Shown here: positions 10,544-23,400 of the stretch, in pieces | Position numbering within the stretch: position 1 is the first letter of the stretch | How the letters are laid out: the number at the start of each line of letters is the position of its first letter | NCBI GenBank assembly: GCA_004335835.1 | Contig: RWJK01001429.1 | Location: 1 to 64,000, forward strand | Reading direction: 5' to 3' | DNA length: 64,000 bases | DNA from: Scenedesmus sp. ARA3 | Taxonomy: Eukaryota > Chlorophyta > Chlorophyceae > Sphaeropleales > Scenedesmaceae | Made by a program: the position numbers and the translations under genes | Notes under the pieces: generated by a model | Databases searched by the model: none | Seen by the model: the letters and a program-made list of their open reading frames with translations, nothing else | What the model was told of the DNA's origin: nothing

Positions 10544-13500
10544 ATGGTTGCTGAAGAAAGCAACAAGTATGCTTTGCGGGCCCGATACATACGCAGGGCC
10601 TTCGAGCAGCAGGGTGACAGCAAGGAGGCCTCCAGGTGTGTGTGGCACCTCTATGCGCACTTCCAGCAGCAGCAACAGTGCATGCCTATGGGTCTTGACA
10701 AAGCAGCCCCAACTGTAGAATACAGCAGCACCTAGCCAGGCTCAGCTGCAACAGTGCGCCACCCAAGATCATGTACACCCCTCACATGTGTCACTGCCCC
10801 TGCTGCTGCTGCCACTGCCACCGATGCCTGCTCATTGCCTGCTTCTGTGCAGTGGTGCTGCTGATGTGCGGGAGGCAGCCATTGCGGTGGGCCTCAAGCC
10901 CAAGCAGATGACAAAGCAGGAGCGGCAGCAGTTCAGCGGCAGGACACGCATATACCTGCAGGCCAGGTGTGTGAGCACCAACCGGCAGTTGCGTACACTG
11001 TACAGCAGCTGCCTGCTGGCATGCACAGCCTGTCCAGTGGCATTGATGCGCCTTGGTAACATCTGTTCTGCATTCATCTCCTGCAGGAACAAGATATTGG
11101 TGCAATGGTGGCAGGACTGCACCCGCCCTGTTAGCCTGCGCGCTGTGCTTGGTGAGCGCAGGCGTTGGAGGCAGCAGCTGCGCCAGCAGCAGCAGGACAT
11201 GCAACATGCAGCTTGCAGCCTTTACTGTAGGTGGCTGCAGCCATGCCATGCTTCTAAAGGCCTGGCAGGTGCCCTGCTTGCCTGGTAGGCAACAGCAGCA
11301 TGGACGTGGCGTCCTGCTGGCTCCCAGCGCCTGGCTGTGACAGTGTCTGCTGCACCCCGTCTGCAGATGCTGCTGATGACGCTGCTCTGGCTGTGACCAA
11401 GGATGCCTTCTACTTCCTGCAAGAGAACGGCTACATCAACTTTGGCGTGCTGCCAGGTGGGTAATGTAGCAACCTGTGCTGCCTGCTGTGTCTGCTGTGC
11501 AGGCATGTTCCACGCTCAACTCAGCACGATGTGGCCGGCTATAGCTGGATAGACTCCAGCAGGCAATTCAAAATGCAGTTGCCCACTGCCATGCTGCATG
11601 CATCTGCACGTTGCTGTGCATGCTCCATAACTTGAAAGCAGCATGTGTCCAAGCATACTGCGACTGCAGAAGGGCACCTGCACCTGACTCAACGTGTTAT
11701 GCTTGCACCCGACATTGCAGAGGCGGCAGAGCCAGCAGCAGCACCAGCCGAGGGAGAGGCAGCAGCTGCAGCAGAAGCAGCAGCAGAGGATGCAGCCGCT
11801 GCGGCGGAGCCTGAGGAGGATGAGCGAGCGATTGTGTTCAAGCTGTATGAGCTGCTGAGGGCTGCAGACATGGAGGTGCGCAGCACAGCAGCTTGGCGGC
11901 TGCTTTGATGATGACTGCCAGCACACTGCCAGGCCGCCAGCTACAATATTCACGGCAGGAGGCAGTGCAGCTTGCGCATGACGGCTTGCAGCACCAGCAG
12001 CACGCCCCGGGGCCTACTCTGCCGCCAGGGAGCTGACACATGAACAGAAACAGCTGCTGCAGCTGTGTACCGACTCATGAACCATACGCCGCTTGCAGCG
12101 CTGCAGCTGATTGTGCTGCCTGCCGTCGTCAACTGCCGCAGACCACGTCTGAGAAAGCACTGCGCAAGGAGCTGCAGAAGCACTTCAAGACAGACATCAG
12201 CGAGAAGAAGCAGCTGGTCAAGGAGCACGTGAGCTGCAGGCAGTGGCGTCAGATGTTCTCAAATATGCAGCTGCACCTCTTCCGGCACAGCTTGAAAACC
12301 AGACACAGGCTTGCTGTGGTTGTTACGTAATGAGCCAGCGGCTCTAAGAACCCCAGCCTGTAAATCCCTTGCACCAATTGCCATTGTATGTAAAGGCATT
12401 GGCAGGGCGTGCATGTAGCAGCTTGGACCACACCTGCAGCCCATTCATGTAACCTGCCTTAATGATGTGTTGATTATGCTGCTGCATCACGCAGGTGAAC
12501 TACTTCATTGAGCACCTAGAGGAGAAGGCAACGCTGCAGCCCAAGGGCTATGAGGGGCAGCTGGGGCCAGCAGAGGCAGCAGCAGCGGCAGCGAAGGCCA
12601 AAGCAAAGCAGGCTGCAGCAGCTGCAGCAGCAGCAGTAAAGCGCGCGGCGGCAGCAGCACCGCTGCCCAAGCCGTCTGGCCGTGTGATTGTGGTGGGCGC
12701 TGGCCCTGCAGGCCTGGCAGCTGCTACAGTGCTCAAGGTGGGAGCAGCGGGGCTGGCGACAGTTGCAACATCCACATACGTGCTGATAATGCTGTGTTGG
12801 TAACAATGCATGAATGCTGTCAAGACGGCCGACTGATGGCCAAGCCGCTGCCTGCATCACAAAGCTCACGCTTCTGCTGCTACTGGTGCTGCTGCCATTG
12901 CTTCAATGTTGCCCGCTCCTGCAGCGCAACAATGTGGACGTGTTGGTGCTGGAGGCGCGCGACCGCGTGGGCGGCCGCGTGCACTCCTACTCGGGGCCTT
13001 TTGCAGCGCCGGTTGACCTGGGCGCCTCTCTCGTGACAGGCACAGCACCAGACCTGGCTGAAGGCCTGGCGCCAGACCCTGTGCTGTTTGTGTGCAAGCA
13101 GCTGGGCATCCAGCTGCACACGCTGGGCGGCTCGCTGCCGATTTTTGACGCGCAGGGGCAGCAGGTGACGCCAGAGACGGATGAGGTCGTGGACAGGTGA
13201 GGCGCGGCGCTGGCGCTGCTGTGGGTGCAGATAGAACGTTGTAGCATGCGCTGCAGCACACTGCAGGATGAGCATTGCCAGGTTGATGGAGGCAGTTGGA
13301 GTAGAGCCCGGGGTGCAGCAGAGGATGATGGCTGCTGCATTGCAGTGGGGCCACATGCAGCAGCAGCAGCAGGAGGTATGAGTATGCTGAAGCCCCGCAC
13401 GACTGCACAAGAGCATGCGTCCTCGACGACCTCCTTGCCACCAACATGCACCGCATATGCTGCTGCTGCTGCTGCTGAAGTCTACGAGATGAGCTGCTGG

Positions 13501-16500
13501 ATGCTGCCCGTGAGGTTGCGGACGAAGATGAGGCTGCAGCAGAGAAAATGTCACTAGGGGAGGCGCTGCAGCAGGCATTTGACAAGCGCTTACACAAGCC
13601 AGCAGCAGCAGCAGCAAATGGCAGCACGGATGCAGTTGTGAATGGCGATGCAAAGCCTGCAGCAGCTGAGGAACAAGAGGGCAAAGAGCCTGTGAAACAG
13701 GAGGCAGACGGACAGCAGCAGCAGCCAGATGCTACCACAGAGTCAAAAGAAGACACAGCAGGCGAGGCTGGTGCTGATGCAGCTGCTGCTGTTGAGCCCA
13801 AGGCAGAGCCAAAGCCAGACGCAGCAGCAGACCCAGCTGAGCAGCCCAAAGGAGCAGGCACAGCCGATGCTAACGGTACAGTAGCAGCTGCAGGGGAGAC
13901 CGGCAAGAGCGCTGCTGCAAGTGAAGGTGCAGCTGCCAAGCAGGCCAGCTACACGGCTGAGCAGCTAGAGCTGCTGGACTGGCACTGGGCCAACCTGGAG
14001 TATGGCTGCAGCGCTGCGCTGACTGAGGTGTCGCTGCCTCACTGGAACCAGGTGCGGCGCTGACGGGGCGGGTGGGGCTGCGGGCTGTGTGCTAGCTTGC
14101 TGGGATCAGGCACAGCAGCTGCTGCCAGCACTGCGTGTTTGTTGTGCAGGTCCTGAGAACTGTGGAGGTGTGCAGTATCCATCCATGTGCTGTGCTGATG
14201 CGTGCTGTTGCCTAGCATGGCTGTCAGGGGTCGTGGTGTCTGGCTGCCTGCCATGAACTGCTTGTGCATTCATCTGCTCTGCTTGCAGGATGAGGAGTGG
14301 GGCGGCTTTGGTGGGCCGCATGCCATGGTGGTGGGCGGCTTTGGGCAGGCCATGCAGGGCCTGGCACAGCAGCTGGGAGACGCCCTGCGCCTGTCAACAG
14401 CTGTGGTCAAGATTGAATACAGCCAGCCCGAACAGCAGCAGCAGCAGCAGCCACCGCAGGAAGGTGCGGACCAGGCAGGATCGGACAAGCCAGAGCAGCC
14501 TGCTGACGCGGCGCCGCAGCAGCCTGCTGCTGTGCGGGTAAAGACTGCGCAGGGTGAGGTGCTGGAGGCGGCGCTAGTGCTGGTGACGCTGCCGCTGGGC
14601 GTGCTGAAGGCCGGGGCTGTGGCGTTTGAGCCGCCGCTGCCTGGCTGGAAGAGCAGCGTGGTGGGGCGCATGGGCTTCGGGGACCTCAACAAGGTGGTGC
14701 TGCAGGTGAGGGGCCGAGGTGGCGCTGAAGCAATGAGTGAAGCAGGGGGGTGTCTCATACTGCCAACAGTAACAGAAGGACGGGCAACAGTACGGGCAAC
14801 AGGCAGTTGCTGGCGGTTTGTATGAGTAGTGTTGTGCTTGCTTGCATCCATACCGTGCTACAGGTGAGGGGAGGACGGGGCTGGGCGCTCGGGGGGGCTG
14901 GCTGAAGCAGGGCGTTGCCTGCCTGCATGCTTGCGGCAGCAGTGGCAGGACAGGCAGTAACATGCAGGAAGAGGCAGCAGTTGCCTGAATCTAAGGGGTG
15001 CTTCTGTGCATGCTTGCAATCATGCAACTGACAGTGTGCATGCAGTCAGGCTGCTGAGAGCAGTGTTTGGAGGATCAAGTATCTTCGGTGTTTAGGCAGC
15101 CGCTGTTCATGCTACACCAATCATGGATCTGCCTCACACTCGCCGTTGTTGCAACACTAATTGCTTGCGCCTCGCCATTCACGGCCCCGTTTGTTCATGC
15201 TCTGGCTGGCTGCAGTTCCCTGAGGTGTTCTGGGACGCCGAGGTGGACTACTTTGGCGTGACGCAGCCGGCAGGGCCCGCCAGCCGCGGCCGCTGCTTCA
15301 TGTTCTGGAACCTGGCGCGCTTCAACGGCGGCACGCCGCTGCTGGCGGGCCTTGTGGCGGGCGCGGCTGCGCGCGCAGCGGAGCAGGACAGCCAGGAGGA
15401 GCTGGTGGAGCACACGCTGCAGGTGTGTGGTGTGGGTGGGGTTTAGGTGGGGTGGGGTGTTGTGGCTGGGCTGTGCTGGAGCGCATGCACCTGCTGCTGC
15501 TGGGTGGGCAGCTGGTCAGCCTGCAGTGGAATGGGGTGCACGGACAGCGGAGCAGGGAGTTATGCTGTGCTGCCTTCACATCACAGTGCATCGTAAGCAC
15601 TCGCCGCGAGATCGGGGCAGCCGCTTCAAAAGTGTTGCTACGCATAAGCACAGTATGTACCCAACAGTGCTGCTCCTGGTGTAACTGTCATGCTTCGGTA
15701 CAGGCGTTGCGGCGAGCATACGGCTCCAAGGTGCAGCAGCCGGTGGCAGCACATACCACGCGCTGGGCCAGTGAGGAGTTCAGCCGCGGCAGCTACAGCT
15801 TCGTGGCTGTGGGCTGCTCCGGTGACGACTATGACGCGCTGGCGCTGCCTCTGGCGCGGCGGCTGCTGTTTGCTGGCGAGCACACCTGCAAGGAGCACCC
15901 TGACACAGTGGGAGGTGCGGCGCGGCTGTGCTTGTACAGATTTTGGCATCGAATCACAGCTTTCAAATATTGCAATGAACATAAGGGATGTGGCGGGGTG
16001 GTTGCAGTTGCTGGCTAGGTGATGTTGTGCTGCTGGCTGATTTGTATGGCTTGGGTGGGTAGCGGGTCAACCGGTGCTGTGCTGCAACGCCGCTGCCGCG
16101 CCCCGTGCTGCTGGTGCTGCAGGAGCCATGCTCTCTGGCATGCGCGAGGCTGCGCGCGCGCTGCAGCTGCTGCGAGGCAAGGGAGATGACAGCGAGGCTG
16201 GACTGGTCAGCTCCCGCACTGAAACGCTCAGCAGGGCAGACAAGCGCAAGCGGCGAAAGGAGGAGGAGGAGGGTGAGCAACGGCACATGATTGATTGCCA
16301 TGGCTGCAAATGTGGCACGGCAAAATGCCAGTGCAGCAGCAGGAGCTGCAATGCCAGTCGCAGCTGCATGCTAGACTGATGCAGTGCACTCCTGACCTCA
16401 GGAAGCACGGCCCGTGTAAAGGGCAGACGTAGCGCGCTGCCTCGCCGCTACACAAGCCCTGCCACATGCGGCACCTGCTTGCTGCTGCAACTCAGCACTG

Positions 16501-19500
16501 CTGCAACTGCTCGCTGCTGCTGCTGTGCGCAGAGGAGGCTGGCTGGGAGTCTGCTGAGGATGAGGAGGAAGCTGAGGAGGGCTCCGGCGGTGAGCGCAAG
16601 AAGCGGAAAAAGGACCGGCAGCGGGACAAGAAGGACAAAAAGGAGAAGAAAAGAGACAAGAAAGAGAAGAAAGAAAAGAAAAAGCGCAAGGACAAGGGCG
16701 ATGAGGAAGGAGGCGCCTCAGAAGAGGAGCAGGGTAAGGCGCGGCAGCGGGCCGTGTGCATGGCAGTGTGCGAGCCTGCGCTGGGCATCATGCCTGACTG
16801 ATCGCCCTCCTTCTGCTGGCAGTAGCTGGTTTACATGTCAACCGCCAGCCGTGCATACTTGCGAGCTGACGCAGCACCGCAGTTGCAGGAGGCACCAGCA
16901 GGCGCATGGGACATGGTCATTAGAGCTGGTTTGCTGTGCTGGCTGCTGCAGGTGCTGCTGGCCGCCGCACGCGGACTGGTGAGCGGCGGCAGGCTGGCAT
17001 GCTGCCTGCTGAGGCAGCCAGCCGCGCAGCAGCGCGTGAGCAGTTCAGGCACGACGTGACGCGGCTGTGGCGCGGTCTGCTGGATGCGCAGCAGGGCGAC
17101 GTTGCGGTGAGCAGGCTCAACGAACGCCTGGCTGTGTGGCGGCAGCATTTGTGGCGGCAGCATGTTTGGCGGCAGCAAACAGGGCAAACTGACAGCGGAC
17201 TGTGTTACTGTCAAGTGTCGTTGAAGATGAAAGCAAATCATAGCATGTACGTGCACAAGATCAGCACACAGCTCATGCCCAGCCTTGCCTGGCTTTTTTG
17301 TCAAAGCTGGCGTGGGAACCAATGGACCTGCTGCAGTGCTGACTGTGGATCATCCGCCGTGCGCTGTACAGGTTGTGAATGATGTGCTGTCCGGCTGCGA
17401 CAGCCTGGACACCAAGCAGCAGTGCATAGCAGCCATCCTGCGCGCTACACCTCAGGTGCGGGGCTGCAGGGCAGCAAACTGCAGCGGCGCCTGCTGCATT
17501 GTTTGTTGGGCGGGCGGCACATGCTCTATTCTGCATCCTAGCACAGTATCTGCTTCGCGGAACCTGTCATATTGCCTGCCTCACGAGTGCTGCTCCCAGG
17601 GCTCTTGCAGCAGCCGCAGGCCTGCCCCTGCAAGTGTATGGTTGGTGGCGAGGTGCCTACTCCAAAACATGTGTCGAACCCATTTACTGCACACACATGC
17701 TTCGCGCCTTGCGTCGCTAGGCACTGTCGCAGCTGTCACAGGACGGCCCATTCCTGGCCACGCTGCAGTCCTGGCTGGCCGAGCTGCTGCCCGAGCGCAG
17801 CGATGCCAATGCGCATGTGCTGCTGAAGATCCTGGAGCTGCTGGGCCGGCTGCCTGACAGCAGCTGGGCGCTGCTGAGCAGCTGTCGGCTGCTGGGCAGC
17901 ATCAAGGCTGCTGCTGAGCACCGCAACAAGGAGGTGGCGCAGGCGGCAGCACCCATCCGCAAGGTAGGTGCTGGTGGTGTAGCTGTGCGCAGATATGGTG
18001 ACAGCGCGGTGCGCTAGTTGTGGGTAGAGACCAATGAGGTTGCAGCAGGGCGCAGCGGCTGCAGCAAGCACAGGACTGGGACGGGAGGCAGCTTCTGGCA
18101 GCACACCGATTGCAGCAGCACCAGCCGCAGCAGCAGCAGCAGCAGCAACACAGGTGTGACTGGCTACACTGCCGTGCCTTGTGGCTGCATGGTATACTGC
18201 GTAGTTTTTGTTGTATGCATGCTTGCTGCAAGTCGGCGCGCTGCGTGTTGTGGCACGTGTTTAGGTGTGCGGCATGCTTTGTGTGCTGTGCAGGCGTGGC
18301 TGGCCAAGAACCCCAGCAAGCCCAAGCCAGGCCAGCAGCAGTCGGCAGCAGCAGGGCCCAAGAAGCTGGCCCTGCTCAACCCAGAGCAGCAGAGAAAGCA
18401 GCAGCAGCAGAAGCGGCCGACCTCGTCAGGCGGCGCCCCTGCTAGCCAACCAGCAGCAGCAGCAGGTGGCGCTGCGGGCGGTGGTGTTGCTGCTGCTGCT
18501 GACCTGGCTGGGCTGCTGCCTGATGATGAGCGCGTGCAGTTGGAGGCATCACAGGCAGCCCTGTGGGAGGCACAAGCACAGGTGCGCGGCTCGCTCGTCT
18601 TATCAAGCATCTACTTGCAGACCCATGTTATTGTTCCAGTACAGGTGCAGTTGCTTGACGTCCACTGGTGCTCAGTAATGCATGGTTGCTGCTGGGTACC
18701 TGCAAGCTGCTGATGCTGAGGGAGTCTGCACTGTGGCCGTAACACTCACAAGTATGCCGACCCACCCTGCAACTCATAGCCCCTGTGCTGCATTTCCTGT
18801 ACATCCTGCATGCATACATCTTGCTGCTGCAGGCTGCAGCAGCTGCTGCCGAGCTGGCGCAGCTGCAGCAGCAGCTGCCCGTGGTGCCGCACAGTGGCCG
18901 CATCAGCAGCTTTGGCGAGTACAAGCGCACCGCAAAGCGGCAGCAGGCAGACCTTGATGAAGAAGCACAGCTTGAGCAGCAGGAGGAGGAGGCAGCAGCA
19001 GCAGCGGCAGCGGGCTCAAAGCGGCGCAAGCTGAGTCAGGAGCAGCAGCAGGGCAAGTCTGATGGCTCTGGCAGCAGCAGGCCTGGCTCTGCTGCTGTGG
19101 GTGACGCCAAGGAGGCGGCCACAAAGCAGCTGCGGGACTTTGTCAAGGTGAGAACCAATTGTCTGCTTGTACTGCTTGCTGCCCAGGAGTTGTTGAAGTT
19201 GCACCAGGTGTTGCTGGCAGCTTCGCGCGCAGTGATTCAGTTGACGTGTGGTGGTGGTATGGGGTAGATGCTGCTTCAGGAATTGCGCTGCATGTCCTGT
19301 GCTATGTGGTCCATGGTAGCTTGTCCATCGATCAGCGTAATGTTCCTGCACATTGCCTCCCAATGGTCCCCTGTGCTGCCTGCTGCTTGCTGCGTGTGCT
19401 GCCACAGGCGCAGCTGAAGCCCCGCTTCCAGTCCAAGCAGCTGAGCAGTGAGGACTGCAAGTGGGTGCTGGCCAAGGTCACTGAGAAAGTGCTGAGCGCC

Positions 19501-19683
19501 ACCACAGCCACTGACCTGGACAGGGCGGGCGACTTTGTCAATGCCAAGAGGGAGAAGAAAGTGGCAGCGCTGGTTGACAGCTACGTGGCGAAGCGGCAGC
19601 AGGAGAGGGAGCGCAAGGGGCCAGCAGCAGCAGGAGATGGCAAGGCAGATGCTGCAGCAGCGGCAGGGCAGGACGCATCCTGA
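10544..19683 (+). CDS. LSD1-type histone demethylase fused to TFIIS-N/LW-like and SRI-like domains
   Basis: About 20 exons and roughly 1,400 residues. From the ATG at 10544: a SWIRM domain (RNKILVQWW to [11 protein letters not shown], about 10,850-11,460); an Ala/Glu linker; a DEK_C-like helical domain (about 11,815-12,530; [27 protein letters not shown]); and an FAD amine oxidase opening with [17 protein letters not shown] (near 12,690). [11 protein letters not shown] (near 14,670) keeps the lysine equivalent to human LSD1 Lys661; [11 protein letters not shown] and [11 protein letters not shown] follow near 15,880-16,150. In place of the CoREST-binding tower there is an Ala/Glu/Pro-rich insert (about 13,590-13,960). 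A Lys/Glu-rich nuclear-type stretch (16,534-16,736) leads to an LW-like fold ([13 protein letters not shown] to IRKAWLAKNP, about 17,720-18,320) and an SRI-like end ([18 protein letters not shown]). Exon phases match at every junction from 15.2 to 19.7 kb. The TGA is at 19681-19683. Expected nuclear; substrate (H3K4me1/2) is inferred from the family. Confidence 0.85.
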
Positions 19684-19701: not shown

Positions 19702-19706
19702 TGTAA
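19702..19706 (+). terminator. Candidate TGTAA poly(A) signal of the LSD1-like gene
   Basis: TGTAA begins 18 bases after the TGA. The motif is right, but the spacing is shorter than usual for algal 3' UTRs, so the functional signal may lie elsewhere. Confidence 0.3.
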
Positions 19707-20404: not shown

Positions 20405-23400
20405 ATGGAGGAGCAGACGCCTGGGCTACACATGCTATTCGCCAGATTGTCTATCAACAACGTCATGATGCTGTGCAAGAGCGTTCGTTTGGCCTGGATA
20501 GTGCTCGGCCTGGTCAGCCTTCAGGTGAGCTACGACACGCCCATTGTGCTCCTTGGCTCGACACCTCAAACGAATGGCCTAAACATGTGTGTTTTCTGCA
20601 GGGAGCGACAGCGCAGACGGCCCAGGCTGGGTCAAACACCTCACTGATCGGTGCACTCGAGTCCAATGGCTTCAAGCAGCTGGCTGGCATGTTCGGCACC
20701 CTCAGGCTGAAGGATGAAGACATTCCTACTAACCTTAACCTCACCATTCTGGCACCCACGGACCAGGTGTGTTGCAGCTTACGCAGGCTGGGCCTGAGCT
20801 GTTGCCGGGGCTGAGTGCACACGCATGCATGCTCAGCAGTGCTGTAGCTGTTGTCAGCAAGCAAGAGTGCCTGTCTCAATGACAGCAGGCCACACCATTG
20901 CAAGCGTGTGCATCAAACATGACGCATGCACGGGCACCGCAATCTCCCCGTGCGCACGCATCTGCCATGCTGCAGGCCATCCAGGACTTTGCTGCCTCCA
21001 TGGGCCTGTCCCTGGAGGAGCTGCGTGCACGGCCAGGCCTAGTCGACACACTGCTGAGCTACCACGTGATCCCAGGGCGCAAACTGACAGGTGAACGCAG
21101 ATGGCTGTAGCTACAGCTTGAATGCCTAGTCCACACCACTGCCTGATTGAGTTTGGTACCAGAAGTTATGTTGCTGCAGCCACACACTAAGGGGTAGTAC
21201 CCACCCGCATGCACAGTCACTCCACCTGCTGCTGCTGTCCGCAGGTGAAGGCCTGGTGGCTGGTGGCCCGCCCCGCACCGCCAAGCCGCTCAGCGCCATG
21301 AGCAACCCCCAGGACGTGCTGCGCTTCCAGCGCCTGGCCAACGGCACCATCACGGTCACTGACGTGCAGAACAACACGGCACATGTTGCCGGCGCGCTCA
21401 TCATGCTGCCGCGGGCCAACGTGTTCCCTGTGGACAAGGTGCTGCTCAATGGTGAGCTCGGGTGCTGCATGCATGTGCTGCGCAGCTTGGATTCTCAACA
21501 AGCAGCAAACCTTGGGCTGAGCAGACATCAGTCTGGCAGTCTGTGTGAACCACTGTGCCGGGAGTGGCTGCCAGCTAGTGAACGAAGTTTTTTGTCCTCA
21601 CATTGTGCCAAATGCGCTGCTGCTGCATCTTGCTGCTGCTGCTGCTGCTGCCCCAGGTGATGTGTTCACCAACGTCACAACGCTGCTGCAGTTCCACCCT
21701 GAGTTCAGCTCTCTGGCTGCCCTGATGCCCAAGGCGCCTGGCCTAGCAGGTGGGGCTGGCAGCAGCAGCCGCAGCACCTTAGGTGCATGCAGGCACCGTT
21801 GCAACTCACGGCCTGTGTAGCCTTGGTCTGCACCAGTTCTACATGCTGCGAGCTCTGGACAGTCTGTACAAGCTAAAAGTTATGGTTGGTGATGTGCCCG
21901 GCATCCGCCAGGCACACGTGCAGCTGAACCAGTGCACAGCAGACTTGCAGCTCTGAAAGCGCATACATTGCCCCCAGCTGCTGCATCACAACCCAAACCA
22001 TGGGGGAGATTGCCGTCCGTGCCCAGGCGTGCGTTGTGGATGTTTGGTGTACTCCTCCCCACTGCTCCCGCTGCCCTCATGTGTTATGCAGGTAGCTTCC
22101 GCGACAACACGTTCAACCACACCCTGCTCGCTCCCACCAACGATGCGCTGGCGGCTGCATCAGCCTTGGTGCCATCTGACGAGCAAGGCCTGACCCAGGT
22201 GCTGCAGTACCACGTCATTGCACAGCCTGGCACGCTGCCTGACAACTTCACACAGGGGGCACCGCTCAGCACACTGCTGCCTGGACACAACGTGGTAATC
22301 CGCTACAGGAGGTGAGCCCCTCTAGCTTGGCCCATTATGTGCGCGTTGGCCTTCCGCTTGTTGTGAAACAGCACTCAATCGTCCTGAGCGCTTGCAATGT
22401 TGCTGAACGAAATCTGCATGCATGCGCCATTGGGTTGCAATGTTGTGAAGGACAAGAAGCCAAGGTGTAGCAGATTGTCAGGCACAGCTGCAGCATGGCC
22501 GTGCATAACACAAGCAGGGTCCCTTGCTGCTGTACCGCAACGGTTGGTGCAGGGTGACTGTCCCTGCGCGCTTCAACAGCAGCCGCAACACGTCCTCCAA
22601 CACCGCCACTGTGGAGCCCGAGGGTGGCTCGCCTGATGCAGCAGCCAATGTCACTTCAACAAACCTCTTCTCTGGCAAGGTGAGGGCGGCTGTCAGCATT
22701 TCTGTGGGTGCTCAAGTTGTTGCTACACGGTGCAGCCGTCTGGCGTCCGGCAAATCATATGGTGTGATGATGTCACTGACATTTGGCAACAATTATGGGT
22801 AACCTCACCGCTGAGCAGGCGCGGCAGCTGCAGCCACGCCGCGCTTGTTGCTCTTCTTGCATGCTGCACTGCTTGCAGTACAGGCAACCTGGGCAGCGGT
22901 TCTTCAGCGGCAATGCTCTTTGCAGCCTGCCATGCGCGTGGCTTCAGCTAGACAGCACACGGCCTGCTGTGCAATGGCAGCGGTTGTGCAGCTATCTGCT
23001 GCTGCTTGCCCTTGGGCAGCAGCCAGAATTTTCACTGTGCTGTGGCCCTGCTGCCGCTGGCCTGTTGCTGTATCAGGGTACTGTCCAGGGCATCAACCGT
23101 GTTCTGCTGCCCGCAAAAGCTGCATCAAACGCCTCAGAAACAGCCATGGCTGGCACCAACACAAACACCTCAGAGACAGCCATGGCTGGCACCAACTCCA
23201 CATCAACGACATCACCCGGCCGGCGCCTCCTGGGCCCTGCAGCTGAAGCCGCAAGCATGGCCAGCGGAAGGCAGCTGCTCCGCTATGGCTCCAACCGTGC
23301 AGCTGGGTATGGTGGAGGAAACTCAGACAGCGGCTGTGACCCCACCCTTGACAATGGCTGCGGTGTGCCTGGCAGCCAGAACTCCATGATGTGGCAGAGC

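Follow-up and report, generated by a model that had tools for sequence, protein, structure and literature searches.

A candidate orthologue of the plant histone demethylase LDL3, with TFIIS-N-like and SRI-like domains, in the chlorophyte Tetradesmus obliquus

LDL3 and other proteins with part of its layout

Arabidopsis LDL3 (LSD1-LIKE 3) is held to remove H3K4me2 cotranscriptionally, and the consulted text of PMC10690457 reports that its SRI domain is required to bind phosphorylated RNA polymerase II, that the loss of H3K4me2 by LDL3 depends on polymerase phosphorylation and Paf1C, and that the SRI domain has been deleted experimentally from this single polypeptide. The same text names land-plant orthologues with the SRI domain and cites Rebehmed 2014 (FEBS Lett), and the TFIIS-like domain of LDL3 and its green-algal orthologues are already in print (consulted part of PMC6558185). 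According to these two sources, LDL3 combines a SWIRM domain with an amine oxidase that carries an insert where the tower would be, and its long C-terminal extension includes a TFIIS-like domain as well as an SRI domain at the C-terminus (PMC6558185, PMC10690457); the algal protein described below is built likewise.

Two other kinds of protein share part of this layout. Human LSD1/KDM1A and LSD2/KDM1B have the amine oxidase in common with it, and the consulted text of PMC10690457 describes these mammalian members as having no SRI domain. Set2/SETD2, the H3K36 methyltransferase, has a C-terminal SRI domain like the algal protein, although it is a methyltransferase acting on another lysine and has neither a SWIRM domain nor an oxidase. 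For the autoinhibitory domain (AID) of Set2/SETD2, a likeness to the TFIIS N-terminal domain has been predicted; in an emerging model, the binding of SRI to polymerase lifts the autoinhibition of the enzyme (SETD2 review PMC9167812, in the part consulted).

The gene and its SWIRM, DEK_C and oxidase domains

The window, a stretch of 64,000 nucleotides at the beginning of contig RWJK01001429.1, contains an LDL3-type gene on its forward strand (10544-19683), with 20 coding exons and 19 introns, all of which have GT-AG borders. Its spliced translation is identical across all 1411 residues to P0001, a deposited hypothetical protein of Tetradesmus obliquus, a chlorophyte of the family Scenedesmaceae. 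An earlier note on positions 15216-19683 had proposed one open exon chain leading from an LSD1-type oxidase into further domains, and this proposal held: the peptides that it quoted were found, and no stop interrupts the chain from SWIRM through the LSD1-type oxidase and the helical domain to the SRI-like C-terminus. Its exon junctions were correct to within 3 bases against the splices in the P0001 model (the first five at 16272/16533, 16733/16952, 17106/17372, 17455/17721 and 17963/18294, and the last two at 18581/18833 and 19147/19408; the stop codon ends at 19683). The gene begins far upstream of that stretch, at 10544 (first exon, 10544-10635), and the upstream part encodes the SWIRM domain, a DEK_C domain and the FAD-binding half of the oxidase. 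A candidate exon at 13267-13375 was rejected: although it is open, its phase does not fit the acceptor used, and P0001 lacks it.

The comparison of these sequences suggests, with a probability that we put at about 0.9, that this Tetradesmus obliquus gene is orthologous to plant LDL3, with a tail that would couple its product to elongating RNA polymerase II. The present analysis establishes the gene, its domains and its membership of the family. The earlier note knew of no described LSD1 with such a layout, which was mistaken, since LDL3 is such a protein and two algal entries already bear its name ('LDL3' in Scenedesmus sp. PABB004 and 'lysine-specific histone demethylase 1-like protein 3' in Chlorella sorokiniana). 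The layout is thus real yet already described, because Arabidopsis LDL3 has the same one.

The SWIRM domain (10902-11443; residues 48-116, exons 2-4) was matched in P0001 by Pfam PF04433 (E 2.4e-6) with a score of 28.1 bits, half a bit below the cut-off of 28.6. It is followed, before the oxidase, by the DEK_C domain (11822-12506; residues 155-205, exons 5-7; PF08766, E 4.5e-9), which scored 36.5 bits, above the cut-off of 24.8. The amine oxidase (12675-16166; residues 262-856, exons 7-13; PF01593, E 2.8e-73) was above its Pfam cut-off, and its closest relative in the PDB was human LSD1 (E 9.4e-81), confirming the LSD1 type. It contains a low-complexity insert of about 126 residues (approximately 405-530) in place of the LSD1 tower, which binds CoREST; residues 293-400 of the LSD1 chain align opposite this insert. 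K698 (in LNKVVL) and Y814 (in SGDDYD) did not vary among 30 relatives and stood opposite a lysine and a tyrosine of LSD1, which we take to be its active-site residues K661 and Y761. The SWIRM domain (just below its Pfam cut-off), the LSD1-type oxidase and the insert at the tower place are all features of LDL3, although Arabidopsis LDL3 (1628 residues) has about 33 residues in its insert and 7 introns in its gene (consulted part of PMC6558185), compared with about 126 residues and 19 introns in the alga.

The DEK_C domain distinguishes the algal protein from the Arabidopsis LDL3 kind, as no match to it was obtained in any land-plant member of the comparison. With a profile of 13 algal segments, the domain was found in 33 of the best 120 of the 531 relatives described below, 13 of the 33 being the profile's own members. 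No entry bearing a land-plant name among these 120 had it; Selaginella scored 6.2 bits with this profile, below the threshold. We found no published description of DEK_C within a SWIRM/amine oxidase protein in open-access text, and its presence in many algal LDL3 members, as judged from these profile matches, is possibly an addition to the literature. Note that a search of the genome's contigs with the Pfam SWIRM model gave one weak match (C1508, E 0.026) and missed the exon-split SWIRM of the window, no control being matched, and that the corresponding search with the Pfam SRI model gave no match, with 0 of 14 controls matched either; neither search is therefore informative.

The C-terminal extension and its conservation

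The oxidase is followed in the translation by a Lys/Glu-rich linker (16167-16998; residues 857 to about 974) and then by the TFIIS-N/LW-like helical domain (17026-18317; residues 984-1127, exons 15-18). A leave-out profile, built from relatives outside Scenedesmaceae, gave the helical segment 58.7 bits, compared with 9.7 bits for the best shuffle (2000 made, 1956 scored). The profile of four land plants gave it -0.9 bits (best shuffle, 6.6), which counts against the assignment. The window's own segment had no match to Med26/TFIIS (PF08711) in Pfam up to E 1, whereas 10 of 14 family segments had one (up to E 1, best 1.8e-7), and we therefore call the domain TFIIS-N-like by family. When the family profile (14 rows, one of which is the window's own sequence) was compared with the PDB, it matched IWS1 (8.7e-9), PNUTS (1.3e-8), TFIIS (0.0053) and SETD2 chains (E 0.0021 and 0.0092). 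Because designed helical repeat proteins score alike (7rdr, 7.7e-6, with no stretch passing alone; 5cwj, 0.0058), the matches at E of about 0.002-0.01, including those to SETD2, are weak, and the overlap of the latter with the AID is our assumption. A Pfam match to nec1 (E 0.2, below the cut-off) and the matches of the single helical sequence to EmrA and a viral F protein in the PDB, which are unrelated, were taken as chance. In Foldseek, the first and third hits of the predicted model of exon 17 alone (mean pLDDT 86) were TFIIS N-terminal domains, with weak E values of 0.34 and 0.53, and VIA-align placed beta-catenin and armadillo repeats above the first LW domain, indicating that the fold alone is unspecific.

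The SRI-like domain lies at 19091-19602 (residues 1302-1385, exons 19-20). The segment of residues 1302-1392 scored 65.1 bits with the profile of relatives outside Scenedesmaceae (best shuffle, 10.3; 2000 made, 1980 scored) and 36.6 bits with a profile of four land plants only (best shuffle, 12.0). The cut-out C-terminus matched Pfam SRI (PF08236) with E 0.001 and 19.7 bits, below the curated cut-off of 23.5, whereas 14 of 16 aligned LDL3 SRI segments match this model at E 0.01; the domain is therefore named SRI-like by family. When the complete protein was scanned with Pfam, neither SRI nor Med26/TFIIS was listed, which slightly reduces our confidence in the reading of the gene as a polymerase-coupled LDL3. 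In the PDB, the two best matches of the SRI family profile (16 rows, one being the window's own) were the SRI domains of human HYPB/SETD2 (2a7o, E 0.0094) and Set2 (2c5z, E 0.061), and the single segment matched only Set2 (E 0.61). The fold search with the exon 20 model (pLDDT 74.5) gave ribosomal proteins with E above 5; it tells nothing either way, since part of the first SRI helix is missing from this exon.

The two domain names proposed in the earlier note are thus upheld by family rather than by Pfam: in the HMM search of the C-terminal part, the Pfam SRI and Med26 models fell short of their cut-offs for the window's own sequence, whereas both segments scored far above shuffles with the profiles of their relatives. 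The long C-terminal extension with a TFIIS-like domain, and the SRI domain at its end, were recovered in this way (leave-out and family profiles for the former, leave-out and land-plant-only profiles for the latter).

To collect relatives, we used residues 575-905 of P0001, which comprise oxidase and the 49 residues after it and do not include the helical domain. Among 7992 scored candidates, 531 proteins were obtained at E 1e-20, and the best 120 were examined. The profiles for counting tail domains were built without Scenedesmaceae (and, for the helical domain, also without P0004); 11 and 14 sequences inside these profiles match by construction. The helical domain was found in all 120 of these best relatives and the SRI domain in 110, with the same domain order in 110 of 110. 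As judged by eye, nine of the ten SRI-less proteins stop inside the helical domain or between it and the position of SRI, and the tenth, P0059, is an ambiguous case. The organisms among the 120 include Chlorella, Coccomyxa, Myrmecia, Trebouxia, Micractinium, Physcomitrium, Selaginella and many flowering plants, so that the fusion, which the earlier note had suggested looking for in other chlorophytes, is indeed present there as well as in land plants. The nearest relatives by oxidase in this search appear to be LDL3 proteins, names such as LDL3 or homolog 3 being included among the best 120 of 531. One entry, P0007 from Myrmecia, comes with precomputed Pfam labels for all five domains (SWIRM, DEK_C, oxidase, Med26/TFIIS and SRI), and Pfam at E 0.01 found SRI in 14 and Med26/TFIIS in 7 of 30 chosen members. 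Quick FastTree trees of the oxidase (30 members) and the tail (29 members), both without an outgroup and with weak deep support, each recovered the land plants and the Tetradesmus/Scenedesmus group.

A protein search with the helical domain (residues 990-1150 of a preliminary gene model, up to E 10) gave four proteins, namely two from T. obliquus, the 'LDL3' of Scenedesmus sp. PABB004 and P0004. The last, transcriptome-derived by its name, has the oxidase and the helical domain in one ORF that ends before SRI. By eye, this ORF stops close to where exons 18 and 19 join, its end carrying a few odd residues such as a retained intron would produce, and SRI-less isoforms may exist, judging from where it ends.

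Alternative readings and possible function

TGTAA is the usual poly(A) signal of green algae, and a pattern count gave 35 occurrences in the window. One of them (19702-19706, forward strand), 19 bases past the stop codon, is a possible signal for this gene, and two others, at 15680 in intron 11 and at 16415 in intron 13, are possible early poly(A) sites, so that a short transcript without the tail is conceivable; use of the site at 16415 would yield a demethylase without the tail. These two sites, together with the low complexity of the Lys/Glu linker, are also what could be expected if the gene model had fused two adjacent genes, one for an LSD1-type oxidase and the other for a TFIIS-N/SRI protein. 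We find this hardly credible, because 110 of the best 120 of 531 relatives, which come from both green algae and land plants, keep the three domains in the same order (oxidase, helical domain, SRI), P0004 joins the oxidase and the helical domain in a single ORF, and the Arabidopsis protein from which SRI was removed by experiment is one polypeptide (PMC10690457, consulted text).

A true LDL3 orthologue might instead have a tail that no longer serves as a polymerase anchor, its divergent SRI and helical domains being relics or having other partners. The SRI score below the Pfam cut-off, the whole-protein scan that lists neither tail domain and the failure of the land-plant profile to reach the helical domain would fit such a loss. 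We nevertheless consider it quite unlikely, as both tail domains score strongly with leave-out profiles and as P0001 and P0002, both from T. obliquus, are identical at 82 of 84 positions in SRI and 140 of 144 in the helical domain, a level close to that of the C-terminal part of the oxidase (318 of 326) and well above that of the tower-site insert (99 of 126).

If the gene is an LDL3 orthologue with a working tail, SWIRM and DEK_C would probably help to keep the protein on chromatin (for DEK_C, this is our inference), and the FAD-dependent oxidase would, by analogy, demethylate H3K4me2 in the alga. The SRI domain would bind the phosphorylated CTD, to judge from Arabidopsis LDL3, the TFIIS-N-like domain might bind another elongation factor or regulate the enzyme, and the C-terminal tail would in this manner couple the demethylase to elongating RNA polymerase II. 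The coupling proposed by the earlier note agrees with Arabidopsis LDL3 (consulted text of PMC10690457) and would extend to the alga by analogy. Polymerase-coupled H3K4 demethylases, earlier described as perhaps conserved among land plants, would then extend to chlorophyte algae, some of which are single-celled and lend themselves to such tests. The SRI tail in chlorophytes is possibly new, in that the literature consulted speaks of SRI in land plants only.

The weak match of the helical-domain profile to SETD2 chains suggests that the LDL3 tail may resemble the AID and SRI of Set2. In its full form, which we regard as rather doubtful, the LDL3 tail would be the Set2/SETD2 regulatory tail (a TFIIS-N-like autoinhibitory domain plus SRI) placed on an H3K4 eraser, with the oxidase kept in check by the helical domain for as long as SRI has not engaged the phosphorylated CTD; this switch would predate the split of chlorophytes and land plants, and DEK_C would be an extra algal chromatin contact. 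We found no paper drawing the parallel between the LDL3 tail and the autoinhibitory tail of Set2 in open-access text, and the likeness is tentatively a possible addition. If the layout is shared, one and the same module may serve both the H3K36 writer and the H3K4 eraser in reading the polymerase.

Elsewhere in the window, neither an Rfam family at the gathering score nor a tRNA was found. Downstream of the LDL3-type gene and on the same strand, another gene (about 20600-22315) contains two stretches matching Fasciclin (PF02469, 2.4e-10 and 3.6e-6).
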